Assembly (NCBI GenBank): GCA_000802095.1
Contig: JUEB01000026.1
Location: forward strand, 558,001 to 622,000
Origin: Peptococcaceae bacterium BICA1-7
Lineage (GTDB): Bacteria; Bacillota; Desulfotomaculia; Desulfotomaculales; Desulfocucumaceae
DNA length: 64,000 nucleotides
Direction of reading: 5' to 3'
The notes under the pieces were generated by a model. That model was given only the letters and a program-made list of their open reading frames with translations, was not told where the DNA came from and searched no databases. Made by a program: the position numbers and the translations under genes. Of this stretch, positions 27,362-29,915 are shown piece by piece; positions within the stretch are counted from its first letter, which is position 1; each line of letters begins with the position of its first letter.

Positions 27362-27484
27362 TTTTCTCACTTTTTCTGTCTGGCGGGATCGCCCTGGCGG
27401 GAGCAGTCCCGCTTTTCTCTGTTATACAGGGATTGTTCTGGCGTCCCAGGAGGGATTCGAACCCCCGACCTACGGATTAGAAGT
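27362..27484 (-). repeat. Duplicated tRNA-Arg 3' flank, left att-like copy
   Basis: 123 bp nearly identical (5 mismatches by my count) to 29762-29884, exactly 2,400 bp away. The innermost 46 bp (27439-27484) is the 3' part of tRNA-Arg(TCT): CCA, acceptor strand, T arm, variable loop and the anticodon stem up to the anticodon. The rest of the tRNA is absent. This is the usual result of site-specific integration into a tRNA gene. Confidence 0.85.
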
Positions 27485-27887
27485 TAACCGACGACATTTT
27501 TCCCGTATTTTTCATTTTTGCGAAACCCTTGTGTATCTTGGGTTTAAGATTTTATTAGGGTTATTTCATTTTTCATTAAAAGGTGTTCTGATAAAATATT
27601 TTCTCAATTTTTTCTCAGAAATAATCTTTAAAATACAACAGGCCAATTCGTTATGGTAACTTTTATGCCCCTGAAGGTTCCCTCGTTTTTCAATTAGGAT
27701 ATCTTTCTACGAGGAATACTAATAATTTTTTCTATGGAGAAATCATTATGTGGGCAAGGTTGTATCTTTAACAAATACTCTCACTTTATAAATAGGCTTA
27801 AATAGCTACACTCATTTCATTGTATAGATTATAATGATTGTGATTTTTCTTAAAAATTGCCTTGCTTTTAACACAACTCAACAATTT
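27485..27887. other. AT-rich att-proximal stretch, no gene
   Basis: Holds repeated T-rich blocks such as TTTTTCATTTTTGC, TTATTTCATTTTTCATTA and TTTTCTCAATTTTTTCTCAG that resemble integrase arm-site regions. No open frame with a start signal was seen. Confidence 0.4.
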
Positions 27888-28130
27888 TTAACCACAATGC
27901 TTTGTTAGGTCTTGTATAATCTTATCTAGCAAACCGAAATAATCCTTATTTAGTTTGTCTATCTCCGGGTCGTGAGAAGTTTTCAGCCTCACCTGTATCA
28001 ATCTTTCACTTAAACCTATTAATTGCTCAAAACATTCATTTATATACTTATTTTTTAAGCAGCTAGCAACATGTCAAGCTGGCTTTACATTTATTAAAAA
28101 GCTATCAAACTCAATAACTGCCCGACGCAC
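27888..28130 (-). pseudogene. Candidate decayed small gene inside the island
   Basis: From GTG 28130 to TAA 27888 (81 codons) one minus-strand frame reads VRRAVIEFDSFLINVKPA-stop(TGA)-HVASCLKNKYINECFEQLIGLSERLIQ..., ending DYFGLLDKIIQDLTKHCG. A single in-frame TGA interrupts an otherwise coding-like helical protein. No family is recognised; a distant resemblance to Spo0E-like small proteins is not convincing. Confidence 0.35.
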
Positions 28131-28151
28131 ATATAATCAATAGACGAATAT

Positions 28152-28187
28152 AAAAAAAGCCTCCAGCATAAAAACTGCTGAGGGGCT
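28152..28187 (-). terminator. tRNA-type terminator, copy B
   Basis: GCCCCTCAGCA / TGCTGGAGGC followed by TTTTTTT on the minus strand. Together with the adjoining AATCAAAGATGATTTTC it repeats copies A and C, but no tRNA piece is attached. Confidence 0.75.
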
Positions 28188-28303
28188 AAATCAAAGATGA
28201 TTTTCCCAATTTTTCCACAAACATATAGTGGCTCCTGGCAAAGGCAACCCCTATTTATTTAGTATGAATATACAACTTATCAGGTTTAAGAGTTGACTTT
28301 CCC

Positions 28304-29434
28304 CTACTTTGGCCAAATACGTTCTTTAGGAGGTGGCGGCGGCACCTCTTCTACATGCTTAAGGACGTAATACTTTATGGTTTTTACCGTCTTATTTCCA
28401 GCATTATCAACAGCTTCCACGGTAAATGTCTTTTCCCCCTCAGTGTAGTCGTCCAGTGGCGCCCCATAGGGAGCTGATGCCATGGAATAATCTATACCTG
28501 AAATATTGTCCCTGGCTGACCATTGATAGTTTACAGTTTGATATAACCTGTACTTTGCTCCTTCTGCCGGGTATGTAAATATTATTTCCGGAGGGGTTTT
28601 ATCAATATTTATATTCTTTACAGAAAATGACCACTTTGTTCCTTGCCCATCAACAGCGGTACCGGTTACTCCCTGTAGCCAACCCTCTGTGTCTATCCCT
28701 ATTTCAGGTGTAAGTACAGTCACATCCGGCTTTGTTGCAGTAAAGCGAACGATAATATCAGCGTTGTACCACCCTTTTTTGTTAGGAGAAGTCAAGGGCT
28801 CACCCCAAAAAACTGTGTTTTTATATTCCTTATTAGGCACCATGGCCACCAACAGCGGTCCAGAAAAATTGTAGGAAAAAATGTTGAGGCTTATAAAGAT
28901 GCTGGAACCTGAACTGGCGCCAAGACGCCTCACAGCTACTCCCCCACTATCCGCGCACCAACCATTGAAATCTAGCCTATGAGAAGCAAAGGATCCTATC
29001 CGTTTGTTATCATGCGAGCGGTACATCTCCACAACCCATAGATCAAGTAATTTGATATATTTCATATCTACATAGAACCTGCCGTCAGGAGAGTAGTTTG
29101 GAAACGGGTAATTTGGGGGCATGTCCTGGTGATCGCTGGTCCATCTGTTTTTTCTATCCCATTCCGCACTTAATGCGTGGTGCTCTGGCGTAGACAATTC
29201 ATGATCAAAATCAATTGAATCATTTTCGCCGTCAAAACCTCTGACTGGTAAAGTGGTAAAGATATGAGATAAGGAGTAGTATAAAGGAATTACCATGAGA
29301 ACTGCTATCATTGTTATCAAAATTTTCTTTTTTTCTATCCACTTGCTTAGAAATTTAAAAAAATAAAATAAACATAGTATTAGAATAAAAATTATAAATA
29401 GTATTATAACCAATAAACCGATTAAAAAACTCAA
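28304..29434 (-). CDS. Membrane-anchored protein with bacterial Ig-like domain
   Basis: 376 aa from TTG 29434 (AGGAGGG upstream). Two N-terminal TM helices at ~5-28 and ~38-58 are followed by a ~310-residue extracytoplasmic part. The region ~215-275 has the phrase NKKGWYNADIIVRFTAT...TEGWLQGVTGTAVDGQGTKWS, and ~285-350 has IDKTPPEIIFTYPAEGAKY...AVDNAGNKTVKT. Together these are the Ig-like/Big repeat typical of Clostridia surface proteins. It ends in a Pro-rich tail (EEVPPPPPKE). The central domain is not recognised. It is the only intact gene of the tRNA-Arg island and is AT-rich, consistent with transfer. Confidence 0.8.
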   Translation of the reverse strand: MSFLIGLLVIILFIIFILILCLFYFFKFLSKWIEKKKILITMIAVLMVIPLYYSLSHIFTTLPVRGFDGENDSIDFDHELSTPEHHALSAEWDRKNRWTSDHQDMPPNYPFPNYSPDGRFYVDMKYIKLLDLWVVEMYRSHDNKRIGSFASHRLDFNGWCADSGGVAVRRLGASSGSSIFISLNIFSYNFSGPLLVAMVPNKEYKNTVFWGEPLTSPNKKGWYNADIIVRFTATKPDVTVLTPEIGIDTEGWLQGVTGTAVDGQGTKWSFSVKNINIDKTPPEIIFTYPAEGAKYRLYQTVNYQWSARDNISGIDYSMASAPYGAPLDDYTEGEKTFTVEAVDNAGNKTVKTIKYYVLKHVEEVPPPPPKERIWPK

Positions 29435-29694
29435 ATTTTAGTCACCCTCCTTTCATAAGGAAGAATGTAGAAATGTTGACGTTGTTGGTATTTGACTTTC
29501 ACAGTGCAACCTATCATTTTTAATTTGATTAATTTCTACATATAAGTTAGATGGTGTGTTATAATTTTATATACAAATTAACACATAATCAACCTTCATT
29601 TACCTTTTTGCCCATAATATACTATTTCATTGTCTGAAAGGTTGTTTTCCTTCCGGGTTATATACCCCGCTTAACTATACTGACTACATTAGCA
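29435..29694. other. 260-bp intergenic gap
   Basis: AT-rich; contains the RBS of the TTG 29434 gene and no other recognisable feature. Confidence 0.35.
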
Positions 29695-29737
29695 TAAAAA
29701 ATAGCCCTCAGCTTAAACTCATGTTTGGCTGAGGGCT
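29695..29737 (-). terminator. tRNA-Arg terminator, copy C
   Basis: AGCCCTCAGC / GCTGAGGGCT perfect 10-bp stem followed on the minus strand by ATTTTTT; about 100 bp downstream of tRNA-Arg. Confidence 0.8.
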
Positions 29738-29761
29738 AAATCAAAGATGATTTTCTCACTT

Positions 29762-29884
29762 TTTTCTCACTTTTTCTGTTTGGCGGGATCGCCCTGGCGG
29801 GGGCAGTCCCGCTTTTCCCTGTTATACAGGGATAATTCTGGCGTCCCAGGAGGGATTCGAACCCCCGACCTACGGATTAGAAGT
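29762..29884 (-). repeat. Duplicated tRNA-Arg 3' flank, right copy with intact tRNA
   Basis: Right copy of the 123-bp duplication described at 27362-27484. Here it continues into the full tRNA-Arg. Confidence 0.85.
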
Positions 29885-29915
29885 CCGTTGCTCTATCCAG
29901 CTGAGCTACTGGGAC
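29839..29915 (-). tRNA. tRNA-Arg (anticodon TCT)
   Basis: 77 nt with encoded CCA. Acceptor GTCCCAG / CTGGGAC, D arm AGCTCAGCTGGATAGAGC, anticodon loop CTTCTAA giving TCT, and T arm GGGGGTTCGAATCCC, all pair well. A consensus promoter lies at 29931-29959. Its 3' half is duplicated at 27439-27484. Confidence 0.97.

Follow-up and report, generated by a model that had tools for sequence, protein, structure and literature searches.

In the 64,000-nucleotide window of Peptococcaceae bacterium BICA1-7 analysed here, to which all positions refer, part of the only tRNA gene, a tRNA-Arg with anticodon TCT (ARAGORN, Rfam), occurs a second time 2,400 bp away. What process generated this truncated copy, and how many times it acted, are the questions raised by the locus. 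It appears probable, at roughly 0.8, that related tyrosine-integrase elements entered the gene at least twice, and probably three times, and that deletion then left a scar devoid of integrase.

The two copies (27362–27484 and 29762–29884) form a direct repeat of 123 nt with 96% identity, returned by the repeat search as a family of exactly two, in agreement with the near-identical duplication described at these positions in the original prediction. As also stated there, 46 bp of the repeat belong to the 3′ part of the tRNA, the intact gene being on the right and the truncated one on the left: the left copy holds the final 46 tRNA bases without any mismatch (E 1.6e-17 in a whole-genome search). 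This fragment extends from the anticodon loop to the CCA, has the same orientation as the intact gene and lies on its downstream side. Realignment of the copies, which had been suggested as a check, lengthens the duplicated unit once gaps are allowed: it then runs from tRNA position 32 to 143 bp past the tRNA (+143), with 161 of 191 positions identical. Read on the minus strand, the unit opens with the tRNA 3′ half, which is followed by a terminator-like hairpin, by the AAAAAGTGAGA repeat and by a second hairpin that has a T run (Table 1). The right copy carries two AAAAAGTGAGA units and the left copy one, which corresponds to one extra 11-bp unit on the right; the left copy may be read as having lost exactly one such unit. 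Counterparts of the second hairpin are observed at the matching place in two genomes of the order, G016 and G038.

Table 1. Features of the tRNA-Arg(TCT) locus, in window coordinates.
Feature	Position	Strand	Basis or details
Extra copy of the tRNA-terminator hairpin	26212..26246		Score 35 vs shuffled maximum 27; one short hairpin
DUF5615 PIN-like gene, in-frame stop near start	26331-26594	-	Pfam E 7e-15
DUF433 gene, open	26630-26908	-	Pfam E 2e-23
Left arm module: terminator, one 11-bp unit (27362-27375), second hairpin (27320-27350)	27311..27438	-	Alignments; identity with right copy to +143
attR-type truncated copy of tRNA-Arg (final 46 bases)	27439..27484	-	46/46 vs intact gene
AT-rich decayed segment, 31% G+C, gene scraps, none intact	about 27485-28147		
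Third, decayed arm module without tRNA part	28141..28258	-	Arm remnant and hairpin 28141-28215; weaker terminator remnant 28234-28258
Intact 376-aa ORF, cargo; predicted N-terminal membrane helices	28304..29434	-	ORF list; Pfam
Second hairpin TAGCCCTCAGC...GCTGAGGGCTA and T run, outer end of arm module	29702..29738	-	Sequence, alignment
Putative integrase arm site, AAAAAGTGAGA at 11-bp period	29751..29775	-	0/400 shuffles reach repeat
Terminator-like hairpin directly past intact tRNA	29785..29820	-	Sequence; repeat family D5
Intact tRNA-Arg(TCT), target gene	29839..29915	-	ARAGORN; Rfam RF00005, 73 bits

The same gene is affected elsewhere in the order. A match to tRNA-Arg(TCT) is present in 103 of 113 genomes, and about 18 of those 103 carry truncated 3′ copies, a count that is approximate because some of them lie at contig ends. 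These copies begin at tRNA positions 24–40 and, when both copies are on one contig, lie 1 to 76 kb from the intact gene. A tyrosine integrase is located beside tRNA-Arg, and convergent with it, in G038, G018, G034, G003, G041, G063 and G065; a Pfam check of six such integrases revealed PF00589 in all six, PF14659 in most and the arm-binding PF14657 above cut-off in one. The gene is thus a tyrosine-integrase hot spot. Intact islands at this site range from 9.8 kb (G038) to 76 kb (G065), and larger integrase-bearing islands, which the original prediction advised to look for, exist in relatives. Taken with the orientation and side of the 3′ fragment and the crossover in the anticodon loop, these integrases support its reading of a site-specific integration followed by decay.

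Unequal recombination could in principle have duplicated the tRNA region without mobile elements, the left tRNA losing its 5′ half later. Such a plain duplication would fit with the lack of mobile genes between the copies and with the inclusion of flanking sequence in the unit, but it offers no reason for a break at the anticodon stem-loop, or for the recurrence of such breaks in this orientation. Full-length or randomly broken copies would be expected from a simple tandem duplication, whereas the left copy is broken at the anticodon stem-loop, as are those of the about 18 other genomes, many of which have an integrase by the tRNA. Two full tandem tRNA-Arg genes without integrases were seen at the locus in none of the 113 genomes, and we consider this explanation very improbable. 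The original prediction had also named, as contrary evidence, the sharing of both copies and their content by all related strains; this does not hold, the two genus mates differing in sequence at the site.

The extension of the duplication well past the tRNA had been called unusual. A single insertion duplicates the tRNA part alone. Identity indeed stops between +0 and +6 past the tRNA 3′ end in most att pairs that were compared, as expected when native DNA follows the displaced fragment; it reaches +46 in G038 (terminator only), +76 in G016 and +143 in the window. This long reach becomes explicable if an earlier, related element left its arm beside the truncated copy. Because the duplication runs through the terminator and the 11-bp-period repeat, a form found next to integrases in relatives as well, such an arm probably makes up the DNA on the left side of the truncated tRNA, and its presence there would imply at least two insertion rounds. 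The original integration reading thus holds as regards insertion into the tRNA, but is incomplete, at least two insertions being probable.

A single insertion might still produce an extended repeat, if the element had picked up host DNA past the tRNA or if the host already had such a downstream sequence. G038 provides an example of this kind, where a single ordinary island, with one integrase, is bounded by a repeat that goes no further than the terminator. However, a single insertion does not predict a repeat that continues to +143 through the arm repeats and the second hairpin, and the third module copy is left unexplained by it. A history limited to one insertion looks unlikely to us, although it should be mentioned that the absence of a tRNA fragment from this middle copy argues against two or more insertions.

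The arm and hairpin part of the middle copy aligns with the left copy with a score of 99 (shuffled maximum 29) and with the right copy with a score of 65 (shuffled maximum 25), the match of its terminator part being borderline. The 15-mer of the terminator core, GCCCTGGCGGGNGCA, occurs exactly in the 4.75-Mb genome only at 26218, 27391 and 29791. Given the first of these three sites, a further scar may sit beyond the interval initially noted, at the extra hairpin listed in Table 1, which is a possible outermost scar edge. The hairpins form a mosaic, those of the left and middle copies being most alike while the arms are most alike between left and right, so that no simple insertion order emerges. 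Altogether, the array comprises two full modules, a decayed third module and, possibly, a fourth terminator, with an integrase in no unit. The finding of three similar hairpin modules inside 2.4 kb could suggest a dispersed genomic repeat family lying near the tRNA by chance. Yet the 149-bp module has no other match in the genome and, like the exact terminator core, is confined to the locus, which points to a local array; since the arm repeat is in addition absent from the 112 remaining genomes of the order, a chance association of this kind seems scarcely credible.

Many loci carry a short direct repeat immediately past the tRNA terminator, and its period is 11 bp in 11 of 13 significant cases. 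Eleven base pairs represent one helical turn of DNA. These repeats are putative integrase arm sites; comparable short direct repeats, in the att arms of Oenococcus phages, have been read in this way (PMC8074189). Their association with a nearby integrase gives a Fisher p of 0.08, not significant alone, and the link is only suggestive, since the repeat is also present in several remnants that lack the gene.

As regards gene content, the description of one intact membrane-protein gene and AT-rich DNA between the two tRNA copies was accurate. The Ig-like character attributed to this protein is less firm, the match of its C-terminal part to Big_7 (E 0.008) lying under the Pfam cut-off. The C-terminal region is 48% identical to secreted-type proteins of a genus mate, G001; a pattern scan of GTDB contigs retrieved no relatives of the protein, and its predicted structure, with a mean pLDDT of 41.7, was set aside. 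To the left of the truncated tRNA, the DUF433 and DUF5615 genes (26331–26908) form a typical toxin–antitoxin type pairing, which is the probable cargo of the oldest element, an assignment that we infer. A small-protein fragment (NELTKEQQIELLRTLEKKF...) is encoded at 27062–27196, with a 74% identical relative in G006; it is probably another gene remnant, perhaps of an antitoxin.

The predicted lack of an integrase was verified in two ways: a whole-genome PF00589 search placed none at the locus, and tblastn with five hot-spot integrases detected no integrase or remnant in the window (best E 0.13). No relaxase, conjugation or phage gene is left at the locus to reveal the ancestor. On the flanks, the upstream GGDEF neighbour is kept beside the tRNA in G001 (60%) and G007 (54%); the left-flank gene has distant relatives only (35% in the genus mate), and the tRNA-Arg regions that were read contain none of these. 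ORFs at 31119–36228, beside the tRNA, resemble (by eye, from the ORF list) an activator and subunits of the 2-hydroxyacyl-CoA dehydratase/benzoyl-CoA reductase type and an acyl-CoA ligase.

The history that we favour is one of tandem accretion followed by decay. Tyrosine-integrase elements would have entered the anticodon-loop half of tRNA-Arg(TCT) in at least two rounds, probably three. Every insertion would rebuild the tRNA with element-borne sequence, and the 3′ half of the present intact gene, on the attL side, would be element-supplied. Older DNA, with the displaced tRNA 3′ fragment at its head, would be shifted away from the gene. Since the elements would be related, they would bring a common end module made of the tRNA 3′ half, the terminator, the 11-bp-period arm repeats and the second hairpin. 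Later deletions would have reduced each element to about 1 to 1.5 kb by removing its integrase and almost all of its cargo; the survivors would be the intact membrane-protein gene, the broken toxin–antitoxin type pair and gene scraps. The number and order of the insertions, as well as the deletions, are what we infer from this layout.

Possible stages of such a decay can be recognized in relatives, beginning with the intact islands. At one tRNA-Arg of G003 (L034, L035) there is a pair of integrases, of which the second lies directly past a truncated copy about 20 kb off; period-11 repeats follow this truncated copy at once, before the second integrase, and the whole is an apparent tandem island. 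In G027 (L113, 7388–8874), a 1.4-kb remnant retains a truncated tRNA and an integrase with its middle missing, only the two ends being left, and its arm repeats TTGAGAAAAATTTGAGAAAA are very similar to those of the window. G016 displays a double remnant, with two truncated tRNA copies and a C-terminal integrase piece, and the window, without integrase, could represent a further stage. As these stages come from different species, the series is an analogy between independent cases and not a lineage.

Among mobile sequences, the full att sequence has no match in viral contigs, and no match was found in plasmids. A shorter att pattern was recovered in 13 viral contigs, nearly all of them with whole tRNA genes. 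In one IMG/VR contig (L089, 407–1780), a tyrosine integrase lies beside the 3′ part only of tRNA-Arg (93.8% over 48 bp), an arrangement that resembles a phage attP directed at this tRNA. The arm repeat occurs in two viral contigs, which have neither the tRNA nor a detectable integrase and were judged unrelated.

Several known systems resemble the locus. Islander defines tDNA islands by an intact tRNA gene with a 3′ fragment and by an integrase gene, and tandem arrays have been described with it (PMC4383910). Here the tRNA and its 3′ fragment are on one replicon, in matching orientation, on the downstream side and at least 2 kb apart (2,400 bp), and the crossover lies at the anticodon-loop subsite, the tandem class being the closest counterpart; in contrast, the integrase demanded is lacking, so that the locus is a remnant rather than an intact island and would be rejected. 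CIMEs are decayed elements which have kept their att sites and lost their recombination and transfer genes, with a classical size of 1.2–13 kb (PMC7563491). The window locus is similar in its att-type repeats at both ends, lost integrase, size within this range and apparent tandem layout, but there is no sign that it descends from an ICE or IME, and it has no active element in tandem with it at present. At ssrA in Dehalococcoides, same-site islands lie in a row downstream of the RNA gene, some without an integration module, and have been read as accretion (PMC3146451). The window locus may hold a comparable row, with units devoid of integration module, although a serine recombinase and tmRNA are involved there, and tyrosine recombinases at tRNA-Arg in the relatives of the window. 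In Oenococcus oeni, tRNA-sited prophage remnants, one of them in tandem with a related prophage, share with our locus the type of site, the tandem arrangement and the short direct repeats in the att arms, but they are larger (5–20 kb) and mostly retain the integrase (PMC8074189). The cryptic prophage DLP12 of E. coli, at argU, likewise combines a tRNA-Arg target with a repeat of the tRNA 3′ part (47 bp) at its far end (PMC6379469), but is far bigger and a recognisable prophage.

Although well preserved, the window locus is ordinary, a genomic scar of a known kind at a site used repeatedly across the order, and it leaves the general picture unchanged. A more speculative proposal, in which we place little confidence, is that the segment is not dead: its intact arm repeats and core beside the tRNA might let incoming elements with a matching integrase dock and take the small cargo with them, a minimal CIME-like passenger by which the membrane-protein gene would be kept circulating. 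On the same tentative footing, repeats of period 11 that directly follow a tRNA terminator may more generally mark past or present integrase sites, even with the integrase gone. The locus offers a readable case of tRNA-site islands piling up and eroding, in which the end modules outlast the integrase, and such a scar would be overlooked by integrase-based island finders, e.g., Islander. The order-wide comparison adds a decay series and, with the 11-bp-period repeats past the tRNA terminator, a possible marker for integrase-less scars.
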